Shown here: one piece after another, positions 33,051 to 52,544 of the stretch
Layout of the letters: each line of letters opens with the position of its first letter
Numbering within the stretch: position 1 is the first letter of the stretch
From: Nostoc carneum NIES-2107
GTDB lineage: Bacteria; Cyanobacteriota; Cyanobacteriia; Cyanobacteriales; Nostocaceae
Length of the DNA: 64,000 bases
Direction of reading: 5' to 3'
Assembly: GCA_002368155.1 (NCBI GenBank)
Contig: AP018180.1
Span: 4,921,007-4,985,006, forward strand
Program-made: the position numbers and the translations under genes
The notes under the pieces: generated by a model
Told to the model about the DNA's origin: nothing
Databases searched by the model: none
The model's input: the letters and a program-made list of their open reading frames with translations, nothing else

Positions 33051-33221
33051 CTATCTCACACCTGATGAGTCAGTATAACTAATAGGAGCTTTTTGCGGTG
33101 GCAATGAGTGATATTCCGCTAGTGTAGCTATAGCGAAACATAATGTCAGACTCAAAACAAAAGTTGTGAAAAACTGCATGATAAAAAATCGGTGCAAAAG
33201 CCACTTCATATAATTCATCAT
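33051..33221 (-). CDS. Small single-pass membrane protein (hypothetical)
   Basis: 56 aa from ATG 33221. One hydrophobic helix (FFTTFVLSLTLCFAIATLA, about 16-34), then a polar, proline-containing tail (YHSLPPQKAPISYTDSSGVR). A good Shine-Dalgarno, GGAGG, sits 6 nt before the ATG, which is the main reason to believe it. Not recognised. It could instead be a chance frame. Confidence 0.45.
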   Translation of the reverse strand: MMNYMKWLLHRFFIMQFFTTFVLSLTLCFAIATLAEYHSLPPQKAPISYTDSSGVR

Positions 33222-34144
33222 TGTTAAGCCTCCGGCATTGCACGGGGAAATCATCAAAAAACTTTTGACAAATTATGTATGAATAAGTAGGTTAGCGATC
33301 GCACATGACTATTTTTAGAAGAGTCAAGGGAAAAATGTTCTCCTTTCTCCCTATAAAATTTTACATAGTTGGGTTTAATCGAGCCTACTTATTAACAGTT
33401 CAGCGCTTAATTGCTAAACTTATATCTTTACCTTTAATTTCATGACAATTAACCCAACAATCATTGATCAGTGAAAGCTAGGAATATGGCACTGAATCTG
33501 TATTTGTTAGTAGTTTGCACCCAAAAGGTAATTTTAAAATTGGTAATTTATTAATTCTATTCTCTGATCGAAAAGTACCTAATTGTTATAAATGAACGGA
33601 ATATCTTAATCTTAGAATTTACTCCATCTGTATCCGTGTCAACAATTGGCTTTGCCCGTATGTAGATAGAATTTGGCTTACGCCTATTCAATTGTACATA
33701 TACAAGCAGATAAAAGCATCTATCGTTAGATAGAGAGTTTTTATGTAATAAAATTTAGAGTAGTTCTAAATTATTTTAGGTGAGTGAGTATACAAGCCAT
33801 GATTTAACTAAATTTATATTTAGGGGTAGCAACCAAATTATTTCACATAAATTATACCAGTTCCTCATTGATGTTACTTGCTCAGGACGGAGAAACAAAC
33901 TATATAATTTACAAATATCGAATCATTAAATGCTTCACAGGTGTGTAAACATAAAGGGGAAGTGCTTTTACCGTAGAGACTGTACAGCTAAATTAATAAA
34001 TAAGAAATATAAACTTTAACATCGGGTAATTCGTAACCAGAGTCTTGTATAATATATTTTTAATGTAAAATCTAATACTGTTAATTATTTCTTTTGAGAA
34101 ACTCCAGTTCTCAAACGGGATAAGAGTGATATAAATTTAAATTA
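33222..34144. other. Long AT-rich intergenic region
   Basis: 923 bp between the small membrane protein and the CHASE2 kinase 3' end. One HIP1 site at about 33296. I see no gene, hairpin or repeat of note. Confidence 0.4.
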
Positions 34145-36028
34145 TTAATAGAACCAAAACTTGCTAGCAGGCCAAGAAAGTTCACAAAGGGTACCTCTTG
34201 GAGACAAAGAAACTCTCCGAAATTTGCCCTTAAGTTGTCGAGCTAAATTTCTAAATTGTTGTGTGCCTCTCCCTTCTTTATAAGAACTAATAGCTAATGC
34301 ATCATCTATAATACTTAAAGTGTGCCAGCCTTCAGATGAAGAACAATTAACTTCAAGACGGGTGACTCCGGTGGCGTGTTTGCCAACATTACATAATGCT
34401 TCTTCTAAAAATCGGCAGAGTCCTCTTTTTTGTTCAATATTCAACCCCTTCTCGTCGATAGGTTCAAAGGTGCGGATTTTCACTTTGATGCTTTTAAAGC
34501 AGGGAAAGTCTCGCTCTAAAGTATAGCTGTAAACTTGATAAAGAATTTCGTGAATCGGGTCATGTAAATTGATAACTAACCCTTTTCCTAAATATAAACT
34601 TTTATCTTGATTTACAGGTTCTCGTTGCAAGAATTCATAAATTCCCCGTAGATCGTAATTTAATTTTTCTAATTCTTTTTCAATTTCTGGTAGTAATATA
34701 TCTGCAGGTAAGTTCTGTTCTTTAACTAGTTTCAGAACTTTAGCTAAGGTTTGCAGAGGCCCATTATGAATTGTTTCAAATGTGCGTTCAATCATCGTAT
34801 AATGGGCATTAATTTCTGCTTTTAAAGTTTGTTCATATTGATATAAAGCAGTCAGTCCTAAAGAATTTAAGGTATAAATAATTATTGTTGGTGCTAGAGG
34901 AATCCACCAACCCAAAATCAAAAATATATAACCTACAAGAACGAGAATAAAGCTAGCAAAACCAATGGTCACAAGATTGAGCAAAGGTAATTTAGTTAAC
35001 CTGGCGTGAACGATTCCTAAAAAACCCCAAGCAATAATCCAAATATATTCCCATTCATCTTGCCAAGTCTTTAAGAGGGGTCGAGAATTGAGAACTACAC
35101 TGATCAGTTGGCTAACAGCATGAGCATGAATTTCTACGCCATAAACTTGGCCTGGAGGTGCAAATTTTGCCGACGGAATAGCAGAAGTTGTGGTAAAGTC
35201 TTTGGCGCTAGGGGCCGTCATGCCAATAATGACAATGCGATCGCGTATCCACTCAGACTGGAATCTTCCTGCTTTGATATCGCCAAGGGTCACCGTTCTA
35301 AATCGTTCCTGGCCACTACGAAAGTTGAGTAATAACTGAAATCCCCCCGCATCGGTTCGCACATATCCGCCAGAGTTGCTGTAAACGCGAGGTAGTTGAA
35401 TATTACCAACCCAGATCGGGTTGCGATCGCCAAATCCATATTTTAACTGAATGCCTTCATTAGCTAAATACATCTCTGCTAACTTCAGAGATAAGGCAAA
35501 TTTGTATCCTTTTGGTGTAATTGTTCCTAGTAGGCTGCGTCTTAATTTACCATCTGCATCTGGAATTTGATCTACAAAACCAATTTGTGCATTAGATAAA
35601 TACGGTGGTGGATCAATTGTTACAGGTAATGCTTTTTCAATCCCAATTAAATTTTTATGTTGTTGAAATGTACTTACTAGTTCAGCAGAACCAGGCTCAA
35701 CTGGTATATCCCTAACAACATCAACACCAATGGCTCGAGGAGCGTAAGTCTGCAATTTTTTTAACAAGCTTGCCATTTCTTGATCTGGGATGGGATATCC
35801 AAAATCATGGATATCATCTTCATTAATACCAACAATTACAATTCGTTCATCTACAGATTCCACAGGCCGTAGACGGAGGAAACTATCAAATACTAGCCAC
35901 TCTAAAGATTGCATTGCACCAGTCAGACGAACAATAATCACCAGACAAAGTACTACAATCCCGGGTAGCGTTCCTACACGCCAAATGGAGATTTCCTCTT
36001 TGATTCTTCTCCAAATTCCAGGCTGCAT
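34145..36028 (-). CDS. CHASE2-domain sensor histidine kinase (HisKA_3-like)
   Basis: 627 aa. Order: N-terminal helix (about 18-36), extracytoplasmic CHASE2 sensor (FDSFLRLRPVESVDERIVIV then GINEDDIHDFG), three closely spaced helices (about 325-400), then a transmitter. The phospho-acceptor is probably His421 in TIHNGPLQTL, a variant of the HDGPLQ box of NarX/DesK-type kinases. The ATP domain has an N-box FLEEALCNVGKHATG and a weak G-box (KEGRGTQQFRNLARQLKG). It lies 499 bp downstream of a LuxR-type regulator on the same strand, its likely partner. Shares CHASE2 with the cyclase at 50262-52544. Confidence 0.87.
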   Translation of the reverse strand: MQPGIWRRIKEEISIWRVGTLPGIVVLCLVIIVRLTGAMQSLEWLVFDSFLRLRPVESVDERIVIVGINEDDIHDFGYPIPDQEMASLLKKLQTYAPRAIGVDVVRDIPVEPGSAELVSTFQQHKNLIGIEKALPVTIDPPPYLSNAQIGFVDQIPDADGKLRRSLLGTITPKGYKFALSLKLAEMYLANEGIQLKYGFGDRNPIWVGNIQLPRVYSNSGGYVRTDAGGFQLLLNFRSGQERFRTVTLGDIKAGRFQSEWIRDRIVIIGMTAPSAKDFTTTSAIPSAKFAPPGQVYGVEIHAHAVSQLISVVLNSRPLLKTWQDEWEYIWIIAWGFLGIVHARLTKLPLLNLVTIGFASFILVLVGYIFLILGWWIPLAPTIIIYTLNSLGLTALYQYEQTLKAEINAHYTMIERTFETIHNGPLQTLAKVLKLVKEQNLPADILLPEIEKELEKLNYDLRGIYEFLQREPVNQDKSLYLGKGLVINLHDPIHEILYQVYSYTLERDFPCFKSIKVKIRTFEPIDEKGLNIEQKRGLCRFLEEALCNVGKHATGVTRLEVNCSSSEGWHTLSIIDDALAISSYKEGRGTQQFRNLARQLKGKFRRVSLSPRGTLCELSWPASKFWFY

Positions 36029-36527
36029 AAACCAGTTTCCTAGTCTTTAGTTATCAAATAAAAATCACCGATAATAATTCATCATTATTCAAAATTTAAT
36101 GATTATTAACAAATAAATATTACATTTTTCTAGCCTCAATTTGCTTGTGGTTACAAATAAGACCTAAGCAATAGTCAACCTTAAATATCGGGATTTACTC
36201 AAATCCTGATTTAATTTTATATCTAAGTGTGGGCCCTGATAGCAATGGGTTTGAGCTATAGAAGTAAATAGAAAAAAATATTTACATTGAATGCGATCGC
36301 CTTTGGCCTTCCCAAAGAGTACTAAATATTTGCTGAAAGTATTTTTCTTCAACAAAGCTGCTTACTCTGCGGGAACGCCAAAGGCTAATGGAAAAGTTTG
36401 GTTTTGTTGTATTCGTAATGACATTGTCTCATAAATTATGTGATGAATTTTGCCTTAATACTCGTATCATTACGAACTAAATATTTCATATTGCACAGAA
36501 ACAGCACCTACTAAAGCTTGACTATGA
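36029..36527. other. Intergenic region between regulator and CHASE2 kinase
   Basis: 499 bp, AT-rich, with one HIP1 site (36294-36301) and a short CTGCGGGAACGCCAAAGGC repeat fragment (36367-36385). No gene supported. The length argues against tight cotranscription of the two regulatory genes. Confidence 0.4.
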
Positions 36528-37205
36528 TCAATCAATTAACCCTTCATGTCGAGCTTTCATTTCAGTTTGAATGCGGATATTTTTACCTTCTTCTGGGTAA
36601 ACATCTAAAGCATCTTGTAGCTTATTCCAGTAATGACGCACCATGCGTTCAGACATACACATTCTTTCTGCGATCGTCTTATCTTGTAAACCTTCTTCAA
36701 ATGCTAGAGTTAATACCTTCAGCCACTCTGGTTTTACCTCTAACCCAGAATTGATACCTTTGATATCTTTAGTATGAGTTAATCCTTGTAATGCCCAATC
36801 AACTCTAGTCAACATTTCTTGGGTGGAAAGGCTTTTATCTGCAACAGTAAAGCCACCTTTATGACTATCAATCTCCGGTCTAATTCTGACTAAAGTTCTA
36901 GCATGGGCACTTTGCACAACAATATCTAAATGCGGATAAGATTTCATCAGATTCCTTAGAAGTTGAATTCCTGTATCAGGACGTGCTGTTGCTCCGGGGT
37001 GTTCTGGCATTGATAGATCCATTACTACGAGGTCTGCCTGTGATATCATCATCTGCTCGAGAGCATTCTTAGCATCGATAGCAGTAATAAATTTTGCACT
37101 AGCATATTTTTTTTTCAGTACATCGACTGTTCCCCCTAAAACTGATTCATGGTCGTCAATCACCAAAATTGTGAGCAATTTCTTCTCTGCTGCAAGTTGT
37201 GTCAT
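36528..37205 (-). CDS. Response regulator with LuxR-type HTH output
   Basis: 225 aa from ATG 37205, with GAGG 9 nt upstream. Receiver: acidic pair D17-D18, phospho-acceptor Asp63 (LVVMDLSMPEHPG), lysine in VADKSLST. An inserted loop after Asp63 (EHPGATARPDTGIQLL) is longer than usual. C-terminal helix-turn-helix: LTLAFEEGLQDKTIAERMCM then SERMVRHYWNKLQDAL. The tail is unusual for the LuxR class (ends YPEEGKNIRIQTEMKARHEG). It lies between a degenerate sensor-like gene and the CHASE2 kinase and downstream of a peptide exporter, so regulation of peptide production is an inference. Confidence 0.9.
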   Translation of the reverse strand: MTQLAAEKKLLTILVIDDHESVLGGTVDVLKKKYASAKFITAIDAKNALEQMMISQADLVVMDLSMPEHPGATARPDTGIQLLRNLMKSYPHLDIVVQSAHARTLVRIRPEIDSHKGGFTVADKSLSTQEMLTRVDWALQGLTHTKDIKGINSGLEVKPEWLKVLTLAFEEGLQDKTIAERMCMSERMVRHYWNKLQDALDVYPEEGKNIRIQTEMKARHEGLID

Positions 37206-37591
37206 AATTAACACCTCGTTATCGAACTAAGTAAATACTAATTTTTCATCTACTGCCTAGAGCAAAACAGATGAAAATTGTGCTTTTTTGTCATTTGTTA
37301 TTCTTTTCATCCCTATTCACAGCATTTCCCTGCAAATATTTATAAATTGCAGAAAATCGCCTGATAAAAAGAAAATTAGGGACTAGTATTCCTGACTCTG
37401 TACTTAGCGATCAGTCGAAGTAAAAGCAGCTATTTGAAGCTAGATTGTTGATGTTTATCAGAAAAAACGCTGAATTTATGATTGTATAATTTGTATTATG
37501 TTATTGACAAAGGAAGATGCCCTGAGCAATTATTAAATTGACGATCTAGAGATCTTCAATTAAGACTGCTGATAGTAATATTAACTGATGC
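37206..37591. other. Intergenic region upstream of response regulator
   Basis: 386 bp, AT-rich. No repeat or gene supported. It probably contains the regulator's promoter. Confidence 0.4.
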
Positions 37592-38299
37592 TTACCAGTA
37601 GAAATACCAAGTTAGCATGAGGCTGGTACTACGATAAAAACATTTACCTGAAGTTAATAGGTAAAAGCTATCACACAAATATTGTAATTCTCGTAGATTA
37701 GCGTAAGAAACACGGGTAGATACATCCGGATAAGTAATTTGTACCATTAAATGGCATAAATTTTGGCATTGTTTTAAATTTATATAAATTGATATAGGTG
37801 TTAAAACTTGCGGCAAAGCTATTGTGAGCAATTCTTCTAATAGGCTTAAAATTATTAAGCTTTGTTCAGTTGACTGATGTTGCCAGATCACTGGCATATC
37901 ACGGTGAAAAGATAACTGAGAATTATTCGTCAGCCTAGACTGTAATAAACAATCAATAGCTAACGGCAAGCTATACTGTAGCTGCGATGGAAATAAGCGA
38001 TCGCTCAATTCCACTAAAGATTGATGGAACCTATCAATTTTTTTAACAGATTCTTGAATTTTGTTAACTGATAAATCTAAATTATCTACTGTTAACATTT
38101 CTAGATTGCGCCTGATAATAAAGGATTCCTGCAATAAATCATCCCGAATTTTTTCAGCTTCTAAAAATCTTTTTATCGACTCTTGATAAGACCACCATTT
38201 TAATGCTTGTCGAATTCTTAATTCAGAGCTGATAAACCAGAGGAGGGTTATGAAGCTGGCTATTAACAGTATAACTTGCGTCCACAATAGCAGTTTCAC
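37592..38299 (-). CDS. Membrane-anchored degenerate histidine-kinase-like protein
   Basis: 235 aa, GTG start. One N-terminal helix (about 4-24), a short basic linker, then a helical stretch IRDDLLQESFIIRRNLEML. This aligns with the LHDGLLQ-type dimerisation helix of NarX/LiaS-like kinases but with the phospho-acceptor histidine replaced (RDD in place of HDG). The rest (LLEELLTIALPQVLTPISIYINLKQC) resembles the start of an ATPase domain, yet N- and G-boxes are missing and the protein ends early. It may be a pseudokinase that modulates the adjacent regulator. The family is not named; the reading is an inference. Confidence 0.6.
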   Translation of the reverse strand: MKLLLWTQVILLIASFITLLWFISSELRIRQALKWWSYQESIKRFLEAEKIRDDLLQESFIIRRNLEMLTVDNLDLSVNKIQESVKKIDRFHQSLVELSDRLFPSQLQYSLPLAIDCLLQSRLTNNSQLSFHRDMPVIWQHQSTEQSLIILSLLEELLTIALPQVLTPISIYINLKQCQNLCHLMVQITYPDVSTRVSYANLRELQYLCDSFYLLTSGKCFYRSTSLMLTWYFYW

Positions 38300-38639
38300 A
38301 GGAAGTTTTGATGGGTATTTTATGCCGATTAAATAAAGCTTTAAAGCAAAATATATCAGATTTATCTTTTGTGAAATGTTTAAATTGAATAAGATAACTA
38401 CCCAAAAAATTGATGATAATTAAAAAAATATGCATATTAATTTATAGTTTTCATGAGTAGATGAATATTTGTGTTTTGCAAATAAAAGTCTTGATTGCCT
38501 AGTTTTAGACAATCAACTATGTAAATGCTAAATATAGCTCTATTTTTAAATTTTTGTCCAAATATATGTACGCTTTATGTCTTCTTGTTTTCCGGTTACT
38601 TGCTAGACAGAGAAGTTTGCTGAAATGAAATATACTGAT
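38300..38639. other. Intergenic region after the HlyD gene
   Basis: 340 bp, strongly AT-rich. No hairpin, repeat or gene supported. It separates the exporter genes from the sensory genes. Confidence 0.4.
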
Positions 38640-40049
38640 TTATAAATCAGTAATTAATCTTGCCTTTCGCAACATAAATTGCAGTGCTGTTTCGCGTTTA
38701 GAGATAATATCAGCTTTAGCATCCATACCTGATTGGATATGACACTGATGATTTTGATGACCGAATGATAAACTTTCTGGTGCGATAGTAGCTTCAAAAT
38801 AGCTAGCAGCCAAAATATTAGAACTAGATGTGGGAGAATTTGTACTGTTATTTTGAGATGTAATTACATCTGGAGAAACTGTATTTACAACTCCTTTGAG
38901 AGTCCCATAATCAGGATAAGGACAAGAATCAATTCTTAATTGTACTTCTTGACCAACTTCCACACTTTTAATATCTTGAGTGGGAATCATGGCTTTAATT
39001 ACTAAAGGTGCATTACTAGGTGCAATTTCTGCGATCGCATCACTAGCACCCACCACCTGACCGGGATTGCGTAAATTGAGCTTGAGGATAGTACCTTCAG
39101 TAGTGGCGCGAATTACAGTATTTTGTAGTTGATTGAAAACTTGCTCGAGTTCTTTGTGAGATTGAATTAATTGGGATTGAATTTCCACTCGTCGTTGAAT
39201 TAAAGCTTGTCTTTCTTTATTTAAAGTCGCAATGTTGGCTTTACCTTTAGCAACTTCTTGAGCAATCCGTTCTTTAGCGATTGCGACTGTTGCATCAGTG
39301 GGATTAATCGCAGATTTAGCTGATTCCACTTTAGCCTGAGCTATCTCAACAGCTTTTCTCTCACCTTCAACAACAGCTTTTGTCTGTTCAACTAAGAATT
39401 TTTTCTGCTCAAATTCTCGCTGACCAATCGCACCTTCTTTTGCTAATTGTTCATAGCGATCGCGGTCTAAATTGGCAAAGTCTAAGTCAGCTTGAGCTTT
39501 TTGCAAATCTGTATAGGCTTTTTGCAAATTCGCTTCAGCAACTTGTAAGTCAGTTTGAGTTGTAACTTGACGTTCTTGATACTCTCTTTGGTTACGTAAT
39601 AAATCAGATTCAGCTGCAGAAACAGTCCTATCAATTACTGTTTTTTCTGCTTGCATTTGGTTATCTAAATTAGTGATTTGAGCGTCAATTTGATTTATCT
39701 GTAACCTACCCTGTTGAATATTCCCTTGCAGTTGGCTCTTTTTAATTTGTAATTGTTCATCATCAAGGTAAGCAATAATATCCCCTTGCTTAACAACTTG
39801 ATTTTCTCTCACCAAAATCCGTTTAATAGTTCCTTCCATTTTCGGTTGTGCTAGCCGAATTTCCCCAGTAGGACGGATACTGGCTGGAACTTTAACCGTG
39901 ACATTATATTTCACCCATGAAGAGAGGGCGATCGCAGAACCGACACTACCAACAAGAACTATTCCTGCTAATGATGTCCAAGGGCTGACAGGAGGAATAA
40001 AATCTTCTTGGACTTCAGGTAGGACTTTCTGATTATGGATGAAGAGCAT
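38640..40049 (-). CDS. HlyD-family periplasmic adaptor of peptide exporter
   Basis: 469 aa. One N-terminal helix (about 27-45), a biotinyl-lipoyl-like half-motif (VKVPASIRPTGEIRLAQPKM and IKRILVRENQVVKQGDIIAYLDD), a long coiled coil (about 110-320, with a characteristic DRYEQLAKEGAIGQREFEQK), and the second lipoyl half plus beta barrel (IRATTEGTILKLNLRNPGQVV). It bridges an inner-membrane ABC exporter to a TolC-type outer-membrane channel (no tolC in the window). A strong Shine-Dalgarno, GAGGGG, precedes ATG. Only 29 bp separate it from the ABC transporter gene upstream, so the two form an operon. Confidence 0.93.
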   Translation of the reverse strand: MLFIHNQKVLPEVQEDFIPPVSPWTSLAGIVLVGSVGSAIALSSWVKYNVTVKVPASIRPTGEIRLAQPKMEGTIKRILVRENQVVKQGDIIAYLDDEQLQIKKSQLQGNIQQGRLQINQIDAQITNLDNQMQAEKTVIDRTVSAAESDLLRNQREYQERQVTTQTDLQVAEANLQKAYTDLQKAQADLDFANLDRDRYEQLAKEGAIGQREFEQKKFLVEQTKAVVEGERKAVEIAQAKVESAKSAINPTDATVAIAKERIAQEVAKGKANIATLNKERQALIQRRVEIQSQLIQSHKELEQVFNQLQNTVIRATTEGTILKLNLRNPGQVVGASDAIAEIAPSNAPLVIKAMIPTQDIKSVEVGQEVQLRIDSCPYPDYGTLKGVVNTVSPDVITSQNNSTNSPTSSSNILAASYFEATIAPESLSFGHQNHQCHIQSGMDAKADIISKRETALQFMLRKARLITDL

Positions 40050-40078
40050 ATCATATCCCCTCTGAAAATGAGTGTGAA

Positions 40079-42229
40079 TTAAGGAATGAGAAAATCTAGA
40101 TGGTCACCTGGTTGGGATATCAAATCTTTTAAGGAACCTTGCAGTTTTAATCTGCCGTTTTCTAGTAAAACCACCCAATCAGCACGGTTAATTACTTTGG
40201 GGCGATGTGTAATCAAAATGGTGGTTTTACCTTGACGATGCTCAAACAGCCGATCCAAAACCTGCGCCTCACTCACTGGATCGAGTCCACCAGTGGATTC
40301 ATCCAAAATTAAAACTGGTGGATCTGTGACAATAGCCCGTGCGATCGCTAATCTTTGGCGTTGTCCGCCAGAGATGTTGGCACCAAATTCTCCTAAAATA
40401 GTTTGATATTTTTCTGGGAATTTATTAATAAACTCGTCGGCTCCAGCAATTTGACAAGCTCTCACAATTTGCTCAAAGCTAATATGAGGAGTTCCTAAAC
40501 GGAAGTTTTCTACAATAGAACGATTCCAAAAGTGAGCGTCTTGCGGAACTAGTACAATCTGTTGACGCAAACAATCTAAAGACAGGTCTTGGATATTATA
40601 TATACCAATTTGGATATTACCTGATTGCAGTTGATATAACCCAGCAATTAATTTCGCTAGAGTACTTTTACCACAACCAGATTTACCAATTAATGCGACA
40701 ACTTGTCCACCAGGAATTGTTAACGAAAAATTGTCTAACAAGTCTAGGCGACCAGCATAATGGAAACTGAGATTAGTACAAGTAATATCAGCATCATTGC
40801 CAATATAAGCTAAAGGTTTGCGTCCGTCACCTTCATTTTCTGGAGTAGCATCAATAACTTCTGTTAGGCGTTGTGTGGCAGTTTTAGCCCGCGTAAATTC
40901 TTCTACAAAACTAATAACAGTGGCAATTAACCCCAGAAAATTACCATTCATGGAGTTAAACGCCATTAATTGCCCAATACTAAGATTTTCAGCCGGATTA
41001 ATTACTAAGTTACCACCAAACCATAGCAAAACAACTGCCCCAATCGCAGAAATAAAACCAGAAAAAGTATTATTAATAATTCCTATCTGCATGGTACGAA
41101 AGGTGAGATTACCAAGACGACCAAATCGGTGTTGTAGTTCATCCCAAAATTGCGGAGCAGATGCCGTTGTTTTGAGGGTTAGTGCGCCTTTGAATGTTTC
41201 TACTAAAAGTCCTTGAGTTTCGGCTTCTGTAACTAATAACTCACGAGTTTTTTGCTGCAATGTGGGCTGGAATACTATTGTTGACAGGGTCATAACTATA
41301 GAGATAAATACTGCTACTACAGTTAATTTCCAGCTATAAAAAATCATCAACCCTAAAGAGATGATAGCAATAAAAAACTTGCTAGGTAAGCCAACAACTA
41401 CTTGCGCTACTAATTGATTGATTTGTTCGATATCTTGTAATCTGCTAACTATTTCTCCACTACGACGAGTTTCATAATAGGTTAAAGGTAATCGCAGAAT
41501 TTGCCTGCCAAATTCCATTACCATCCCTAATTGCAGGCGTTGAGCAAAGTTAGCAATTAAATTAGATTGGACAAATGAAAGGCTACTAGAAATAAAATTC
41601 ATTACTACTACAGATATTGCCACAGTAGTTAGTAAGCTAGTATCGCCGCGAACTAGAACATCATCTGTGAGGATTTGTAATAAAAAGGGAGAAGCTAAAG
41701 ATAGTAAGCCCAATATTAAATTCAGTGGTAAAGCTTGTGCTAGAATTGCGCGATAATTCCAAACACGTTTAAAGAAGCGCCAAAAGCCACCAATATTATC
41801 ATCCTTTTGAGCAAAAAATCTGACTGGATCTGGTTCCAGTAATAGCATTAACCAATCTGTCCAACCCTCAGCTAAATCTTTTTTAGAGAGATGGCGAATC
41901 CCTACAGCCGGATCAGCAATTAAACATTTTTTGCCCTTTTTCCCATATAAAACAACCCAATGATTCCCTTTCCAGTGAATAATTGCAGGTAAGGGTGCTT
42001 CATGCATCCTGTTTAACAGTTCTGGTGAAGTTTTAACAGGACGAGTATTAAATCCCAGTGTTTCTGCACCGCGTCTTAACCCTAATAAAGTAGTACCAAA
42101 TTGTCCAGTACCTACAGCTTCTCGGATGTGGGTGAGAGTAAAGTTATGCCCATAATGTTTAGCAATTGTAGCAATGCAAGCAGCCCCGCAATCTTCTTCA
42201 CTATGCTGTTTGACAAATTTATATTTCAT
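40079..42229 (-). CDS. Peptidase-containing ABC transporter (PCAT; C39 peptidase), double-glycine peptide exporter
   Basis: 716 aa. N-terminal C39 peptidase: Gln8, catalytic Cys14 (QHSEEDCGAAC), His90 (GNHWVVLYG) and Asp106 (LIADPAVG). Six transmembrane helices span about 165-430. The nucleotide-binding domain has Walker A GKSGCGKST, signature ISGGQRQRLAIARAI and Walker B VLILDEST. PCATs cut peptides after a Gly-Gly leader and export them. Cotranscribed with the HlyD gene. Two GG-leader peptides are encoded upstream on the same strand, so cognate cargo is at hand. ATG 42229 is chosen over TTG 42235. Confidence 0.95.
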   Translation of the reverse strand: MKYKFVKQHSEEDCGAACIATIAKHYGHNFTLTHIREAVGTGQFGTTLLGLRRGAETLGFNTRPVKTSPELLNRMHEAPLPAIIHWKGNHWVVLYGKKGKKCLIADPAVGIRHLSKKDLAEGWTDWLMLLLEPDPVRFFAQKDDNIGGFWRFFKRVWNYRAILAQALPLNLILGLLSLASPFLLQILTDDVLVRGDTSLLTTVAISVVVMNFISSSLSFVQSNLIANFAQRLQLGMVMEFGRQILRLPLTYYETRRSGEIVSRLQDIEQINQLVAQVVVGLPSKFFIAIISLGLMIFYSWKLTVVAVFISIVMTLSTIVFQPTLQQKTRELLVTEAETQGLLVETFKGALTLKTTASAPQFWDELQHRFGRLGNLTFRTMQIGIINNTFSGFISAIGAVVLLWFGGNLVINPAENLSIGQLMAFNSMNGNFLGLIATVISFVEEFTRAKTATQRLTEVIDATPENEGDGRKPLAYIGNDADITCTNLSFHYAGRLDLLDNFSLTIPGGQVVALIGKSGCGKSTLAKLIAGLYQLQSGNIQIGIYNIQDLSLDCLRQQIVLVPQDAHFWNRSIVENFRLGTPHISFEQIVRACQIAGADEFINKFPEKYQTILGEFGANISGGQRQRLAIARAIVTDPPVLILDESTGGLDPVSEAQVLDRLFEHRQGKTTILITHRPKVINRADWVVLLENGRLKLQGSLKDLISQPGDHLDFLIP

Positions 42230-42361
42230 AAGCAAAGCACTTTACACATCCAGCAATTTAGAAAACCTGTCAATTTATTGGTAAGTGTTTAAAATTAACT
42301 TATAAAAAAATATATAGTATGGTTAATTATGGCTATCAATTTAAATCAATTAAAAATTCGT

Positions 42362-42685
42362 TCAACTCATAATTGACCATAACAATCGTAAGAAGCTATT
42401 AAAGCGTCTGTTTCTGCTCTGAATACTCCCACCTGCAAAAAAAGATGGATTAACACCAATGGTAATTTCTGAAGATATATATGCAGCGTTTGATTGTTGG
42501 TTTAGAGAAAGACTTTGTCCATCTGTAGAAATACTAGCTTGACTTCCAGCTAAAGAAATGATCCGTCTCATTTGAAAGAAGAAAGCAAATTGTGAACTCG
42601 AAATTCCACCAACTATAGTTGCTTGTTCCTCTTCAGGCAAATCTAAAAATAGTTCAGAGTCTGTTAATTTAATATGCTTAGACAC
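42362..42685 (-). CDS. Double-glycine leader peptide precursor 1
   Basis: 107 aa from GTG 42685, with AAGG 7 nt upstream; a TTG at 42709 is an alternative. The 27-residue leader ends ELFLDLPEEEQATIVGG, a typical GG leader with acidic and hydrophobic positions recognised by C39 peptidases. The cargo (about 80 aa) is Ser/Asn/Gln-rich, has no cysteine, and ends in a basic, hydrophobic tail (RNRRFNSFLRLLWSIMS). Located 132 bp upstream of the PCAT gene on the same strand. Bacteriocin or signal peptide is inferred; sequence family not recognised. Confidence 0.8.
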   Translation of the reverse strand: MSKHIKLTDSELFLDLPEEEQATIVGGISSSQFAFFFQMRRIISLAGSQASISTDGQSLSLNQQSNAAYISSEITIGVNPSFFAGGSIQSRNRRFNSFLRLLWSIMS

Positions 42686-42745
42686 AGTGTTGCCTTTTTG
42701 AGTCCTCAATTTATTAACCGAACAGATTGATCAGTTATATGGATA

Positions 42746-42777
42746 ATGAAACGACCCCAAAAGAAGTCGTTTCATTT
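42746..42777. terminator. Hairpin between the two peptide precursor genes
   Basis: An AATGAAACGAC / GTCGTTTCATT 11-bp perfect stem with a 10-nt loop. It lies upstream of precursor 1 and may attenuate or terminate transcripts from precursor 2. No U-run on the minus strand. Confidence 0.5.
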
Positions 42778-42852
42778 GTGTAACCTACTAGGCATTAAAA
42801 TAATTAGGACATCATAGTAGTCCAGGAAAAAAATAGTACCTTAGTAGTTTCA

Positions 42853-42893
42853 AGAAATCCGATCTACTCTATTTGCAAATGCGGATTTCTTGA
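42853..42893 (-). terminator. Terminator of the second peptide precursor gene
   Basis: On the minus strand CAAGAAATCCG and CGGATTTCTTG form an 11-bp stem 18 bp after the stop codon of the precursor, with a TATTTTTTT run a further 17 nt downstream. Confidence 0.6.
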
Positions 42894-42911
42894 TAATAAG
42901 TACAATCTGAT

Positions 42912-43127
42912 TTATGGTACTATCACCTTAAAAGCAGTCAAAGCTGCTGCTAAACTTGTAGCAGATACAGTTCCTGTTGTTGTTGCTCCTCCAGGAAGAG
43001 CAGTAGCACCACCACTACCAGTTAATCCCTGAAAAGATAGAGCACCAGTAAGAAAATCGAGACTAGCACCACCAGTTACGATTTCTTGTTCTTCAACGGA
43101 TACTGCGGTAAATAGTTCGTTAGACAT
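42912..43127 (-). CDS. Double-glycine leader peptide precursor 2
   Basis: 71 aa. A 20-residue leader ends ELFTAVSVEEQEIVTGG and aligns without gaps over the last 17 positions with the leader of the other precursor. The cargo is 51 residues, very rich in Gly, Ala, Thr, Ser and Leu (LTGSGGATALPGGATTTGTV), without cysteine or charge clusters, as in class II microcin-like or small hydrophobic bacteriocins. AGGAG is 9 nt before the ATG. A stem-loop follows the stop, so it can be made as a short, separate, abundant transcript. Confidence 0.82.
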   Translation of the reverse strand: MSNELFTAVSVEEQEIVTGGASLDFLTGALSFQGLTGSGGATALPGGATTTGTVSATSLAAALTAFKVIVP

Positions 43128-43926
43128 GATTAAAGTCTCCTGGGTTTTTATTAGTTTCGCGAGTTGCTTGCCGCTTGTTGGCTTGCTTCTCTCCTCGCTT
43201 GATTAATACGATATAGGCAAGTACCCAGGTGAGTCATTCTCATTTTGTGCAAACTTAATTACCAAAGTTAGAAATTCTCATTTCTTAAATCAGTAAGTGT
43301 AATTACTGAAAAATACATAGCTAAGATTACAACAAATTTTACTAAAAATTATTCAAAAATTAAATAAATTTTATAATAGCTTTACCAAAGTGTTTTATGT
43401 TTGTGGCATGAAAATCCTGGCTTTTCAAGATTTTATCAAAAATATATAGAAAATTATTGCCCTCTTTAAGAAAAAGACTTTGATATATGATAATAAAATA
43501 TTTATGTCAAATTTAATACTTTCTTGTTTTAAAGAATAGACATTATCTAGGCATGGCAAGACAAGTATTTTATTTCTGAAGTGATACAAAATACTCTGGG
43601 GGTAGAGTAATACTGTTTTGGCGCTACACAAGACTCAAATCGCTCTACTTGTAAAGGTAGGCTTGCGCGAGCCTACCTTATGTAAATAGACCACACTTGA
43701 TGGGTGAATAGCACTTACTGAAACAAAAGTTGCTGCCCAGACCCCCGATTTTTCCAAAAAGCTGGGGGTCTAAATTAGCTTATATATCGCTTAAAAAACC
43801 AAAAATCGAGGAATTAGCCTAAATTACTCCTGAAGTTTTTAGTCCAGAGAAGTGATAAGAAATTGACAGGCAATCTCCAACAGGGTATACATATTTGAAC
43901 ATTTATCCTATGCAAGTCTGGATTTT
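43128..43926. other. Long intergenic region upstream of the peptide genes
   Basis: 799 bp between divergent peptide and ccbP genes. Contains the second AGACCCCC hairpin (43739-43771) and AT-rich DNA. It probably contains the promoter of the peptide gene, and I see no further double-glycine leader on either strand. Confidence 0.5.
43739..43771. repeat. Dispersed hairpin repeat, copy 2
   Basis: AGACCCCC and GGGGGTCT arms with the same TTGCTGCCC flank as the copy at 7307-7339. The stem is less perfect in the middle (GATTTTT versus AAAAAGCT). Confidence 0.65.
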
Positions 43927-45433: not shown

Positions 45434-46350
45434 ATGCCCAAGAAGAAATATATCGTGTCTTTGACAGAGACAGAAAGAGATTTCCTAGAAAAATTGACTA
45501 AGAAAGGAAAAACAGCAGCATATAAGATAAATCATGCCAGAATCTTGCTAAAAGCAGATATGAATCATGAAACTGGGGGATGGACAGATAGTCAGATTAG
45601 CGAGTCGTTAGATATTAGCCATGCCACGATAGAGAGAGTAAGACAAAGATTTGTCGAAGAAGGGATGGAAGTAGCCTGAACTCGGCGAGAGCAAAAAAAG
45701 TGTCGTTCCCAAATAATTCATGGAGAAAAAGAAGCTTATCTAATTGCGATAGCTTGTAGTAAAGCTCCCACAGGAAAGAGTAATTGGACGCTGCAAATGC
45801 TGGCAGATAAAATGGTTGAGCTTAACTATGTTGAACAAGAATCTACCGAAACTATCAGAAAAACATTAAAAAAAACGAACTCAAACCGTGGCTGAATGAA
45901 TCTTGGGTAATTCCACCCGAATCAAATGCAGAATTTGTTTACTGTATGGAAGAGGTTTTAGATGTTTACAAACGTCCTTATGATGAAACAAATCCTTGGG
46001 TCTGCTTTGATGAAAGTTGTAAACAGTTAGTTAAAGAAATTCGTGACCCCATTCCAACAGAACCAGGTCAGTTAGAACGTTATGACTATCAATATGAACG
46101 GAATGGAGTAGCCAATCTGTTTATGTTTTTCGAGCCATTAACAGGTTGGAGACACGTCGAGGTTACTGACCAAAGAACCGCCGTTGACTATGCTCATCAA
46201 ATGAAATATTTGGTAGATGAGCGTTATCCCCAAGCGGACAAAATTGGGGTAATTCAAGACCAATTAAATACTCACGCCAAAGCATCTTTATATAAAGCTT
46301 TTGAACCAAAAGAAGCCAAACGGATTTTGGACAAATTGGAATTTTATTGC
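45434..46350 (+). pseudogene. IS630-family transposase relic
   Basis: Starts MPKKKYIVSLTETERDFLEK, has the N-terminal HTH (LDISHATIERVRQRFVEEGM) and continues with the block KSNWTLQMLADKMVELNYVE and the catalytic-domain start VCFDESCKQLVKEIRDPIP. It is broken in three ways. (1) A premature TGA lies at 45677-45679. (2) A run of eight A at 45868-45875 shifts the frame; nine A would restore TLKKNELKPWLNESW. (3) After DKLEF (about 46349) the expected HYTPKHGSWLN / catalytic Asp-Glu end is missing and unrelated sequence follows. Not functional. Confidence 0.85.
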
Positions 46351-46686
46351 CGACGCTACCACTTGAAGAAACCCAGATCGACACTTCGCAAAGATAAAAT
46401 TACCTACCTAATCACATTTGGTCAAATAGCTATTACTCAATTTAGGCAGGGTAGAGGATTGCGTTCACCTAGCCAAGCAGATATTCAAACGCTATGGAAA
46501 ATTATTGAACAGATGAACACACCTACTAGTGAGCAGAAAGGACTTGTTAACTTCTCACTTGAAGATGATAAAAGAATGGAAGTACAGGACGGACAAGACC
46601 AAGAGGAATTGTTGAGACTTGGTACTGTGCATATCTTGCTTGAAAAGGCTTATAAGTTGTTAACTGGCGAGGTAGAGGATGTATAG
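46350..46686 (+). pseudogene. Foreign 3' gene fragment fused in frame to the IS630 relic
   Basis: About 112 residues (YCRRYHLKKPRSTLRKDKIT ... LLEKAYKLLTGEVEDV) read in the same frame as the upstream IS630 segment, giving a chimeric 246-codon open frame from 45946. The tail is hydrophilic and helical, not part of any transposase I know. It looks like the 3' end of a plasmid or integrative-element gene truncated by the IS insertion. A terminator follows at 46743-46766. Confidence 0.55.
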
Positions 46687-46687
46687 A

Positions 46688-46717
46688 AATTTGTTACACA
46701 AATTTGTGTAACAAATT
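46688..46717. repeat. Perfect 30-bp palindrome
   Basis: Arm AATTTGTTACACAAA (46688-46702) is followed without spacer by its exact reverse complement (46703-46717), starting 2 bp after the stop of the chimeric frame and 97 bp from the integrase stop. It could be a terminator component, a recombinase site or a regulatory operator. Confidence 0.8.
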
Positions 46718-46742
46718 CTAGAAAACAGTTCTAGAGACATAA

Positions 46743-46766
46743 AAAGGGAGTATTTCTACTCCCTTT
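46743..46766. terminator. Bidirectional terminator between island genes
   Basis: AAAGGGAGTA / TACTCCCTTT, a 10-bp stem with a 4-nt loop. It lies between the convergent chimeric frame and the integrase gene; A- and T-tracts at the base suit both directions. Confidence 0.8.
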
Positions 46767-46813
46767 AGTTAATTATGATAGTGAGTAATGCTAGCTTTGC
46801 TTATTTTTCTCAG

Positions 46814-48007
46814 CTAAAACTCTGGAACAAACAAATCTCTTTTATTACCTGCATAGTGTTTATAAATTATCTCAGGAGAATTGCCAACTAATCGAGCAAC
46901 GTCTTTGGCATCTAATCCATTTTCTAGCGCTACAGTAATAAAAGTGTGTCTAGTTTGATAAGGTTTTCTATATTCAATACCTAACCCATCTAAAACAACT
47001 TTCCATGTTCGTTTTCTAAAATTGTCAGTATCAATGTATGTTTTTTCTTGAGGACTAGGGAACAAAATATCATCATTATTTTTACCTTCACATAATTTTT
47101 CAAGTATAGGTTTTAGTTTTTGATTAACAAGAAATCTCCTTTTCTCTTGAGTTTTTAATCCTGATTTTTTAGCCAATCCGTTCTCTGTTAACACAACCGC
47201 GCAATCAAATGTTACATATCTAAAGTCGCTAGAAACATTTTTTCTCTCAAGTGCAATAGCTTCTGAAGGTCTACAGCCAGTTAAGAACAAAAACTCTACA
47301 TAGTCAGCATAACAAGAATGCTTAACTCTAGAATATTTAGAACAAAATTGATTACTCCTAAATGCTTCAATTATTAAATCTCTTTCATGCACACTAAAGG
47401 GGTTTATCTCGCCATCATCATTTTTTTGAGATTTAGGAATTGTGATTTTACTAGACATCCCATGAAAAGGGTTATTAGTAATAATTTGTGAATCAATTGC
47501 CCAATCACAACAAGCGCTCAAACGAACAATAAATCTTCTAGCTGATTCTGGAGGAATATTACTTAAAACCCAATCTCTAATTTCAACTGCTTTCTCTAAA
47601 TCATGAGTGGGCAATTTACGCACATAGTTACTAAAAGTTCTCCATTGAAACCTCATTGTGCTGGGTGATGAGGTTTTTCTTTTATGTTCTATAAACTTTT
47701 CCCAAATATCATGAAGACTAACAGAGTATTCTGGTTGCTCTGTTTCTGCTAATCGAAAGGACTCAGGACGGTATTTATTTAATGTGTAGTCAAAAGTTCC
47801 AGGAACAAGAATATTAGCTTGAATGTCCCTCTCTATCTCTTTAGCCTTAGCTTCTGCTATCTGTCGGTTCCCTGGCGTGTCATCTAGTCCAAGTGTTAAG
47901 TATTTTTGCTTTCCATTAAATAATTGCCGGGGTAACGACAACCGTAAGCGCTTGCGGAAACTTTCAACTACGACGGAACCTTTAGTATTGCGTTTTCCTG
48001 ATTGCAT
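46814..48007 (-). CDS. Tyrosine recombinase (site-specific integrase)
   Basis: 397 aa. Full-length phage/ICE-type integrase: arm-binding N-terminus (SFRKRLRLSLPRQLFNGKQK), core-binding domain (about 100-190) and catalytic domain with Arg in FLFLTGCRPSEAIALE, Lys in the KKSGLKTQEKRR region, YQTRHTFITVALENGL, and the nucleophile in IYKHYAGN. The usual His of HxxR is a Tyr, a variant I recall in cyanobacterial integrases. The gene lies immediately downstream of tRNA-Arg and points away from it, as integrases do in elements inserted in a tRNA 3' end. Confidence 0.92.
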   Translation of the reverse strand: MQSGKRNTKGSVVVESFRKRLRLSLPRQLFNGKQKYLTLGLDDTPGNRQIAEAKAKEIERDIQANILVPGTFDYTLNKYRPESFRLAETEQPEYSVSLHDIWEKFIEHKRKTSSPSTMRFQWRTFSNYVRKLPTHDLEKAVEIRDWVLSNIPPESARRFIVRLSACCDWAIDSQIITNNPFHGMSSKITIPKSQKNDDGEINPFSVHERDLIIEAFRSNQFCSKYSRVKHSCYADYVEFLFLTGCRPSEAIALERKNVSSDFRYVTFDCAVVLTENGLAKKSGLKTQEKRRFLVNQKLKPILEKLCEGKNNDDILFPSPQEKTYIDTDNFRKRTWKVVLDGLGIEYRKPYQTRHTFITVALENGLDAKDVARLVGNSPEIIYKHYAGNKRDLFVPEF

Positions 48008-50261: not shown

Positions 50262-52544
50262 TTATATTTTCTGTTGCTCTGATTTATTACTACTAGATTC
50301 CGATTTAAGCCGATTGTCAAATACTTCTTTTGGCTTGGGAGGCATGGCTGTAAAACGAATCAGAAAATAACTGTCATCATCAGGAGCTTTTTTCAACACC
50401 TTGGCATAGACATCGCCTTCACCAGGAGCAATTTCTGGTGCGTTTAATAATCTCATTTTCAGATTAGTTAAAGAATCCAGCGAATTAGGCGATCGCAATA
50501 TCGCACCATGCTCGGATAATTTAACAATTTCGCCCTTAAATATGGTGCCTACTGCGTGTTTCCCTTCCAAAATTGTATATTCTACAGGAATTTCTTCAGA
50601 CAAATTCAGCATATTGTCATCAGATTTCGGCAAGTAAAGATTGTACTTACCACCAATGCCGCCAATGTCATAAATTGTAATCGGAGCTTTAATTCCTTTA
50701 GGTTCTACCCGTAATTGTCCGTCAATTCTAATGTTAATATAGGGGTCGGTATTGGCATCTTTCAAAGTTTCTTCGGAAATCAAAATTTGACCACCAACTG
50801 TATAAGACTCAATCCGAGAAGTTAAGTTAACATGGCTGCCAACAACTGAATATTTAGCACGCTTTTGAGAGCCAACATTACCTGCAACAACTTCACCTGT
50901 ATGAATCCCAATTCCCATTTCGATAATTGGTAAATTCATTTGTTGATTATGTTCATTGACAGGTTTCATTGCTAATTGCATAGCGATCGCACAAGCAATT
51001 GCTCTTTGGGAATCATCTTCGCGACTCACAGGCGCACCAAACATGACAAAGATACCATCACCAATAAATTCATTAATCGTACCGTTGTAATGGTTAATGA
51101 CATCTGCCATTGCTCCCAAATAAACATTGAGAATTGCTACTACTTGTTCGGGTGGTAATCGTTCAGAAACAGCAGAAAATCCTCTTAAGTCAGACATTAA
51201 GACGGTGACTTTTTTCCGTTCTCCTCCTAGCTTAAGACCTGAAGGAGTTTCTAATAAATTAGCAACTACTTCATCTGTGACGTAGCGACCAAAGGTACGG
51301 CGCATTTCCGCAGCACTGCGCGCAATATACTGAGTGACTGCGATCGCAGATCCAGTTAAAGCAAATAGAGGCGGTACAATAGGAATCCACCAAGCAAAAA
51401 GAAAAGCTACATAACTCCCACCAACTAAACAACCAGTTGCTAATACAATACTGCTAGTAGTATTAGTCAGTGAAAATTTCTTGTTTTCATGAATGACATG
51501 TCGATGTTGCCAACACAAAGTTGCACCAACTATCGACCAGAATAAAATCCACAACCATTCTATGGGTTCAGCTAATGTCTTCATTTGTGGGCGACTTTCC
51601 AAAGCTGAACTCAAAATTTGACTAATTAGATTGGCATGAATTGCAACACCAGCCATTCGTACAGGTGCACCAATCAATTTACTACTATATGGTGTCCAAA
51701 ATAGATCATTCAAACTCTCAGCTGTAGCACCAACTAAAACAATTTTTCCTCGCATCAAATCTGGTAAAGTCCGGTTCTCTAAAACATCATTGATAGATAC
51801 CCTTGTGAACCGATCAATTCCCCCTCGGTAGTTTAAAATAATTTGGTAGCTGTTATCATCCGCTCGTAAATAACCACCATCATTACTTTCAAAATTAGGA
51901 AAAACACCTTTACCTAACTGCAAATAGTTAGGATTATTTTGTGCTGGTTTTTCAGTAATTCCTTGTGGTTGCAAATATAATAAGGCTAATTTTAAGCCAA
52001 AACTTTCCAGATTGTTGCCATCAGGCAAACCTGCATACAGTAAAGCTCGGCGTATCCTACCATCTTTATCTAACGGAAAGTCATTCGCTCCTACTTGATT
52101 GAGTTTTTTTAGTTCTGGAGGTGCTTTAACTGCAGAACTATCAGATGTATTAGATAATTTTTCTACTCCTATCAAGTTAGGGGTAGTTTTAAATATATTT
52201 ACTAAGTTTTGATGCCCAGGATTTAAAGGTAAATCTCGATAAATATCAAGACCGATGGCTAGAGGTTTTTGCTGCTTAATATTATTTATAACTTGAGCAA
52301 GTACGTTATCATTTATCGGCCATCCTTTTAATTTCCTGATGTCTGATTCATTAATCTCAACTATGATAATGCGTTCATCAACAGGCTGTTGTGGACGTAA
52401 CAGAAAAAACTGATCTAGTGCGGTCAACTCTAAGAATTCCAGCAATCCCATAAACCGCAGGATAATCACAATAACTGTCACATTAGGCACTGCTAGCAAA
52501 ACTCCGCGCCATTGCCATAATAGCTGTTTTAGCTTGGCCCGCAT
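50262..52544 (-). CDS. CHASE2-domain class III adenylate cyclase with C-terminal PilZ-like domain
   Basis: 760 aa. Synthesises cAMP (inferred). N-terminal helix, extracytoplasmic CHASE2 (FFLLRPQQPVDERIIIVEIN, PLAIGLDIYRDLP), three helices (about 330-420), then the class III catalytic domain (about 440-630): metal-binding Asp452 (VLMSDLRGFS) and Asp496 (GDGIFVMFG), plus GIGIHTGEVVAGNVGS. The last ~110 residues (GTIFKGEIVKLSEHGAILRS, FLIRFTAMP) have a PilZ-like beta-barrel pattern, an unusual extension. CHASE2-cyclases are known in Anabaena. The PilZ call is weaker than the cyclase call. Confidence 0.9.
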   Translation of the reverse strand: MRAKLKQLLWQWRGVLLAVPNVTVIVIILRFMGLLEFLELTALDQFFLLRPQQPVDERIIIVEINESDIRKLKGWPINDNVLAQVINNIKQQKPLAIGLDIYRDLPLNPGHQNLVNIFKTTPNLIGVEKLSNTSDSSAVKAPPELKKLNQVGANDFPLDKDGRIRRALLYAGLPDGNNLESFGLKLALLYLQPQGITEKPAQNNPNYLQLGKGVFPNFESNDGGYLRADDNSYQIILNYRGGIDRFTRVSINDVLENRTLPDLMRGKIVLVGATAESLNDLFWTPYSSKLIGAPVRMAGVAIHANLISQILSSALESRPQMKTLAEPIEWLWILFWSIVGATLCWQHRHVIHENKKFSLTNTTSSIVLATGCLVGGSYVAFLFAWWIPIVPPLFALTGSAIAVTQYIARSAAEMRRTFGRYVTDEVVANLLETPSGLKLGGERKKVTVLMSDLRGFSAVSERLPPEQVVAILNVYLGAMADVINHYNGTINEFIGDGIFVMFGAPVSREDDSQRAIACAIAMQLAMKPVNEHNQQMNLPIIEMGIGIHTGEVVAGNVGSQKRAKYSVVGSHVNLTSRIESYTVGGQILISEETLKDANTDPYINIRIDGQLRVEPKGIKAPITIYDIGGIGGKYNLYLPKSDDNMLNLSEEIPVEYTILEGKHAVGTIFKGEIVKLSEHGAILRSPNSLDSLTNLKMRLLNAPEIAPGEGDVYAKVLKKAPDDDSYFLIRFTAMPPKPKEVFDNRLKSESSSNKSEQQKI

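Follow-up and report, generated by a model that had tools for sequence, protein, structure and literature searches.

Introduction

Clusters for double-glycine (GG) leader peptides abound in cyanobacteria; most are labelled bacteriocins although they have not been tested, and we know of no switch for them. For group III of these clusters, the example in the literature is the region around alr5148 of Nostoc sp. PCC 7120 (PMC3140520). A LexA box has been predicted for alr5147 (PMC3091678). Phosphate starvation in Nodularia induces one CTB bacteriocin operon and not a second, neither of which could be mapped to the cluster described below (PMC9846622). A role other than killing is found in Synechococcus elongatus, where a C39-peptidase transporter, PteB, secretes the small GG-motif proteins EbfG1-4, which enable biofilm (PMC4997328). 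Here, we analyse a 64,000-nucleotide stretch of Nostoc carneum NIES-2107 (contig AP018180.1, positions 4,921,007 to 4,985,006; hereafter the window) from a genome of 9.36 Mb (G000). Its minus strand carries, in this order, genes for two GG-leader precursors (PP1 and PP2), a C39-peptidase ATP-binding cassette (ABC) exporter, a HlyD-type adaptor, a membrane-anchored kinase-like protein (SM), a response regulator (RR) and a CHASE2 histidine kinase (HK), as open reading frames (ORFs) and domain searches indicate.

The exporter half is already known as the group III cyanobacterial bacteriocin type. We propose that in the Nostocaceae, an exporter of this type has probably captured a two-component switch for exported proteins. 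In the mostly open-access literature covered here, on CHASE2 and bacteriocins, CHASE2 and Nostoc, DUF928, alr5146-alr5151 and related subjects, neither the coupling nor the operator was found described, and the accessible text of PMC9679502 and PMC12691664 has nothing on the sensory module. A named RR, an operator of defined sequence and a set of predicted targets make the question of what switches GG-peptide clusters on testable in laboratory strains of Anabaena or Nostoc.

Conservation of the exporter and sensory genes

Matches to the RR were found in 37 of 148 genomes of the order (E ≤ 1e-20) and in 145 of 192 genomes of the family (E ≤ 1e-40); the exporter was searched in the same 192 family genomes. 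Among the matches listed (150 RR rows and 150 exporter rows), an exporter ortholog lies 2.0–3.6 kb upstream on the same strand in 102 of the 112 RRs with at least 67% identity and in none of the 38 with 55–66% identity, and an RR is found near 102 of the 125 exporters with at least 75% identity. The common order in the fetched loci is (CobU) – small gene – GG peptides – exporter – HlyD – SM – RR – HK – (DUF928) – (metallo-beta-lactamase). The exporter is present in 64 of the 80 named loci, including those of Nostoc, Fischerella, Scytonema, Tolypothrix, Dolichospermum, Aphanizomenon and Brasilonema; the window RR has its nearest named relatives in Nostoc linckia and Calothrix membranacea.

Among 108 RRs placed in a tree, the exporter-linked ones fall in one clade of 66 rows (98/89), which is nested among RRs without an exporter and also takes in loci that are split, lie at contig ends or have lost the exporter. 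A plasmid of Calothrix NIES-4105 (L005, 15865-18648) carries a related exporter (72%) and a HlyD gene behind RR, HK, DUF928 and CHAT genes, in another layout and outside the main RR clade. As there is one exporter-linked clade in addition to this plasmid pairing, the window-type block seems to have a single origin, with at least one further origin of a similar pairing. An earlier model-made reading of the window (the sequence-only reading) had tied the sensory genes to the exporter by position only. The conserved block found around these genes in other cyanobacteria, the single RR clade and the shared operator described below now support this coupling.

A conserved element before the first precursor gene

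From 126 dereplicated precursor upstream regions (of 149), expectation-maximisation extracted a conserved element. In 56 of 61 exporter loci, the window included, its parts A (TGTATTTTTCGGAAAT) and B (TTCTaAAtcTGGTAATTAAGTTTGCAGAAAaTGtaAATGACT), followed by a -10-like TATnGT, stand ahead of the first precursor gene. The 61 loci combine an RR of at least 67% with an exporter of at least 75% identity, which leaves out one exporter locus just below the cut (L130), labelled in the RR tree as a locus with the sensory trio only. A and B are about 43 bp apart in all 36 loci with a full-length HK. In the 20 loci with a short HK (L062 among them; the kinase of L107 is a broken gene), 12 have a distance of 22 bp and the other eight one of about 43 bp, a difference of two helical turns.

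A also precedes SM in 15 of 59 exporter loci, where 0.6 were expected and the reverse strand gave one. Between the last precursor and the exporter it was found in 4/60 loci, and between exporter and HlyD (0/60), SM and RR (0/60) or RR and HK (0/58) in none. B exceeded the 1% null before SM in 6/59 loci (reverse strand 2). A B-like TTTGGCA stretch before SM was left unused because it overlaps a small ORF between HlyD and SM. This ORF was itself dropped: its coding look is inconsistent, and the loose pattern that found it in 37/60 loci often caught the SM N-terminus. Separate promoters for the two halves, which the sequence-only reading had argued for from the spacers, are likely.

The element was also compared between exporters with and without the module. 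In seven exporter copies that lack a nearby module (L146, L147, L149, L150, L154, L155, L156), B never scores above 3, and the weak A of L147 (12.4) and L150 (12.6) is near the null maximum (12.3); A scores 15.5 in L154, but 3' of the exporter. B is kept in a split locus (L151, 44), in loci at contig ends (L152, 61; L153, 54) and in L148 (30), whose genome has RRs elsewhere. In G094, where no exporter lies near the module, A and B are both kept (47).

The operator across genomes

A de novo search of 98 upstream regions from loci without an exporter returned a.ttGcActTTT.tGcaA as the best motif. This motif, TTGCA-n-TTTT-n-TGCAA, is a palindrome related to A, and we take it to be the same site. 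A strict form of it, TTGCASTTTTSNGCAA, occurs 34 times in RR-bearing genomes and eight times elsewhere (34/42), about tenfold more densely in the former. It is intergenic at 31 of 33 placed sites in RR-bearing genomes versus two of eight elsewhere (p 1.6e-4), the number placed being 33 because two tandem L297 sites share flanks. Seven of the placed sites precede SM (L040, L069-L071, L074-L076), and strict sites lie about 110–400 bp 5' of various genes for exported proteins (Table 1); two fall inside ORFs (L285, L292).

These distributions bear on the possibility that another transcription factor reads A-B, with the module a neighbour that has a different regulon. Eight strict sites in genomes without a detected RR would fit such a factor, as would the 44 of 59 exporter loci in which A is missing before SM. 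It is nevertheless an unlikely explanation: site density tracks the RR over the 148 genomes, exporter copies that lack the module also lack the element, and 7/33 placed strict sites precede genes of the module itself.

A loose A pattern has three sites in the window's own genome, at the PP1 promoter, near a ferredoxin-type gene and before a TPR gene; we read the latter two as chance.

Kinase, regulator and pseudokinase

The window HK and RR retain both phospho-accepting residues of a two-component system, the His in IHNGPLQ, which is invariant in 22 aligned kinases, and the Asp in VVMDLSMPE. Pfam HisKA_3, HATPase and GerE gave no match at E 0.1 in the window sensory proteins. In the RR, which the sequence-only reading had called LuxR-type, the receiver Asp is kept and the LuxR-type C-terminus lacks a GerE match. 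PHROGs returned three unknown-function families over the receiver part of the RR and none for SM. The CHASE2 domain is present in the window HK as described earlier, and mostly or wholly absent from 18 of the 79 HK ORFs of named loci, of which 16 keep the exporter. Given these 18 ORFs, CHASE2 is not essential.

SM had been called kinase-like without a phospho-acceptor, a description that its predicted fold and an Arg at the expected place of the phospho-acceptor His bear out. No Pfam or NCBIfam model matches SM, but a fold comparison pairs its predicted structure with solved CA and DHp-CA domains of histidine kinases, 7n0e being among the structures compared. SM is most likely a histidine pseudokinase: Arg occupies the expected His position in 34/38 sequences, in a register taken from a weak alignment match, LEELL replaces the N-box, and the catalytic His, N-box Asn and G-box glycines of active kinases are all absent. 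By sequence alone, homology of SM to the HK was not found (hhalign probability 0.1, E 0.42), nor was a PDB sequence match.

The module outside the exporter clade

Outside the exporter clade, the RR-HK pair, often with SM, adjoins genes for DUF928 proteins, TPR-CHAT proteins and haemagglutinins secreted by two-partner secretion (TPS), both chromosomally and on Aulosira and Calothrix plasmids. DUF928 and CHAT genes are kept behind the HK in several exporter loci (L056, L059, L092, L103, L133, L134). The window has a trace of this arrangement, a 68-aa remnant 3' of the HK that covers only the N-terminal part of a DUF928-type protein (47% over 55 aa, E 1.8e-11), which suggests that it once had the DUF928 layout of other module loci. 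RR copies without an adjacent kinase were seen in L041, L047 and L051, 3' of a large protein that in L041 is a CHAT-CHASE2 fusion.

The sequence-only reading had seen in the window the layout of a peptide-pheromone or autoregulated system, and had named sensory genes conserved elsewhere without the exporter as evidence against its proposal. This is literally what was found. It weighs against a receptor dedicated to a peptide pheromone and favours a general switch for exoproteins, joined by the exporter. As a pheromone, the exported core would be an autoinducer sensed by the CHASE2 HK or the pseudokinase, with quorum-type feedback on its own operon. The linkage of peptides, exporter and sensor in 102/112 of the matches listed accords with this, and in some lineages both operons have the operator in common, as in an autoregulated loop. 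Shared positions are also kept across genera by PP2-type cores, in a set partly picked on them. Pheromone sensing is still improbable and not supported here: besides occurring without the exporter in other cyanobacteria, the module dispenses with CHASE2 in 18 of 79 HK ORFs, mostly at exporter loci, serves at least three core classes (by eye) under one RR clade, and no AgrC/ComD-type receptor domain is among the domain matches of the window proteins.

Precursor peptides and their possible role

The two precursors with matched GG leaders, the C39 ABC exporter and the HlyD adaptor were all found as claimed earlier. PP1 scores above the NCBIfam cut-off for NF038167, 'CTB family bacteriocin' (36.7 bits vs 32); PP2 scores below it (16.9 bits vs 32), though its GG leader matches that of PP1. 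The models of the NHLP bacteriocin export system stayed below their cut-offs (TIGR03796, 435.2 vs 853.3; TIGR03794, 53.9 vs 156.2). The exporter combines a C39 peptidase domain with ABC membrane and ATPase domains, and has no N-terminal CAP_ED domain.

An ordinary bacteriocin cluster, whose peptides kill competitors and whose link to an unrelated two-component system is due to chance or hitch-hiking, would agree with the CTB assignment of PP1 and with the described group III bacteriocin clusters (PMC3140520). The conserved linkage and the shared operator make this very improbable, and inspection of the conserved block by eye revealed no immunity-like gene, though no search was aimed at one. 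PP2-type cores keep shared positions across genera, a conservation that is partly built in, as the relatives were picked with a pattern including some of these positions. Because of these shared positions, a surface or signal role suits the peptides better than an arms race. The peptides probably act at the cell surface or in biofilm or colony formation, and less probably in killing.

A proposed exoprotein switch and the evidence against it

Our proposal builds on gene content, synteny, the RR clade, the conserved element, the co-distribution of operator and RR, and the predicted pseudokinase fold. From these we infer a mechanism, including its binding, direction of control, transcription units, signal and peptide role, that would run as follows. 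HK, RR and the membrane pseudokinase would form a cyanobacterial switch for exported proteins, one copy of which joined a GG-peptide exporter cluster in the Nostocaceae lineage. Ahead of the first precursor gene, phosphorylated RR would bind A, and probably also some of B, and in this way turn the peptides on, with exporter and adaptor following by read-through or co-transcription. In part of the lineages, the RR may also bind A before the pseudokinase gene, which would let the module tune itself. The exporter would remove the leaders by a cut behind GG, and would free the cores jointly with the adaptor and an outer-membrane channel. Lacking the His, N-box and G-box residues, SM would carry no phosphate and most likely pair with the HK or compete for the RR.

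Several observations weigh against this proposal. Strong B is absent from five of the 61 exporter loci (L091, L103, L106, L136, L137), of which L103 and L137 have A and L106 seems to be a cut stretch. With the exporter-locus matrix, A at other loci precedes the first module gene in 5/35 (reverse strand 2) and DUF928 in 5/20 (reverse strand 0); it was found before HK in 0/20, before CHAT in 0/23 (reverse strand 4) and before haemagglutinins in 1/20, and it also exceeds the 1% null before unrelated genes of at least 90 aa (8/204; reverse strand 5). The loose form TTGCANTTTTNNGCAA is equally frequent in raw counts with and without an RR, with 70 sites in the 37 RR-bearing genomes (229 Mb), against 3 for the reversed control, and 70 sites in the remaining 111 (579 Mb), against 19 for that control. 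The strict form was picked after the de novo motif was known, the genomes are not independent, and several strict sites lie farther than 450 bp from any gene start, among them L302, the site of the window's own genome.

Two further points concern the window itself. Its SM promoter has no recognisable A (score -6.0), as in its two nearest named relatives, while two other congeners keep a form of A. In the HK, the G1 box at about residues 575-579 reads DDALA and has lost its glycines, a state found in this genus in the window, L086, L161, L162, L164 and L165, the other compared rows keeping the first glycine. For these two reasons, control of PP1 is better supported in the window than autoregulation, and the HK may be weak.

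A broader version of the proposed switch, in which an exoproteome system with a TTGCA-n-TTTT-n-TGCAA operator governs adhesins, RTX proteins, porins and GG peptides, is tentative and rather doubtful. The Nostocaceae exporter would have joined it, its conserved peptides taking part in a cell-surface or colony programme and perhaps feeding back through the pseudokinase.

Features of the locus

All seven genes were present in the row, strand and order given by the sequence-only reading. By eye, the start codons of the RR (ATG 37205), the exporter (ATG 42229) and PP2 (GTG 42685) likely lie inward of the longest ORFs, and RR relatives have stop codons just upstream of the position of this RR start.

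Table 1. Features of the window locus and predicted targets of strict operator sites
Feature	Position or locus	Strand	Basis or remark
Operator A of PP1 promoter (TGTATTTTTC.. ..ACTTACT)	43292..43317	-	Putative; conserved in 56/61 exporter loci
Element B of PP1 promoter	43228..43273	-	Conserved element; coordinates from window sequence
Putative core promoter: ATGACT, 18 bp, TATCGT	43208..43237	-	Conserved columns; -35/-10 assignment inferred
PP1, GG-leader precursor, CTB family	42912..43127	-	ORF and NCBIfam
PP2, second GG-leader precursor, last gene ahead of exporter	42362..42685	-	GTG start inferred; ORF reaches 42709
C39-peptidase ABC exporter (PCAT)	40079..42229	-	ORF to 42235; ORF and domains
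HlyD-type adaptor	38640..40049	-	ORF and domains
SM, membrane-anchored histidine pseudokinase (predicted fold), 235 aa	37592..38299	-	
RR, LuxR-like C-terminus	36528..37205	-	ORF to 37214
CHASE2 HK, His in IHNGPLQ, degenerate G1 box (DDALA)	34145..36028	-	
Remnant of DUF928-type gene	33051..33257	-	Sequence match
Strict-site target: two tandem TPS haemagglutinins	L297		
Strict-site target: RTX protein with metalloprotease domain	L303		
Strict-site target: RTX-VWD protein	L295		
Strict-site target: SLH-OprB porin	L296		
Strict-site target: LysM-CAP protein	L284		
Strict-site target: trypsin-like protein, hydrophobic N-terminus, two genomes	L288, L293		
Strict-site target: GG-leader peptide	L290		Genome whose module has no adjacent exporter

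By eye, a fragmented transposase-like gene and an integrase-like gene were recognised 5' of the peptide cluster (45434-48007). A second CHASE2 protein, adenylate cyclase-like by eye, is encoded in the same window at 50262-52544 (-).

Comparison with known systems

By its layout, the window cluster resembles the group III cyanobacterial bacteriocin clusters as defined in section 5 of PMC3140520, having a short-type C39-ABC exporter with an adjoining HlyD adaptor and GG precursors. It differs in its conserved sensory trio and operator; the terms 'histidine kinase', 'response regulator' and 'two-component' are all absent from the main text of that paper. The nearest functional precedent, likened by description, is the EbfG/PteB system, a non-killing role for exported GG proteins, which has no CHASE2 module in PMC4997328, the accessible text giving no match for histidine kinase or response regulator.

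The sensory half is reminiscent of DesK/NarL-type systems in its HisKA_3-like IHNGPLQ box, its N-box and its LuxR-like RR, and SM and the CA domain are alike in fold to DesK and DosS. Unlike those systems, the window operon adds a membrane pseudokinase, and its sensory proteins stay without the Pfam matches named above. Regulation of one kinase by another, as in RetS-GacS, may serve as a model of how a kinase-like protein could act through its pairing with a genuine kinase. SM departs from this model in having neither the His nor the ATP-binding motifs, and its pairing with the HK is a possibility; as a conserved pseudokinase in a two-component operon, it is a good case for how degenerate kinases act.

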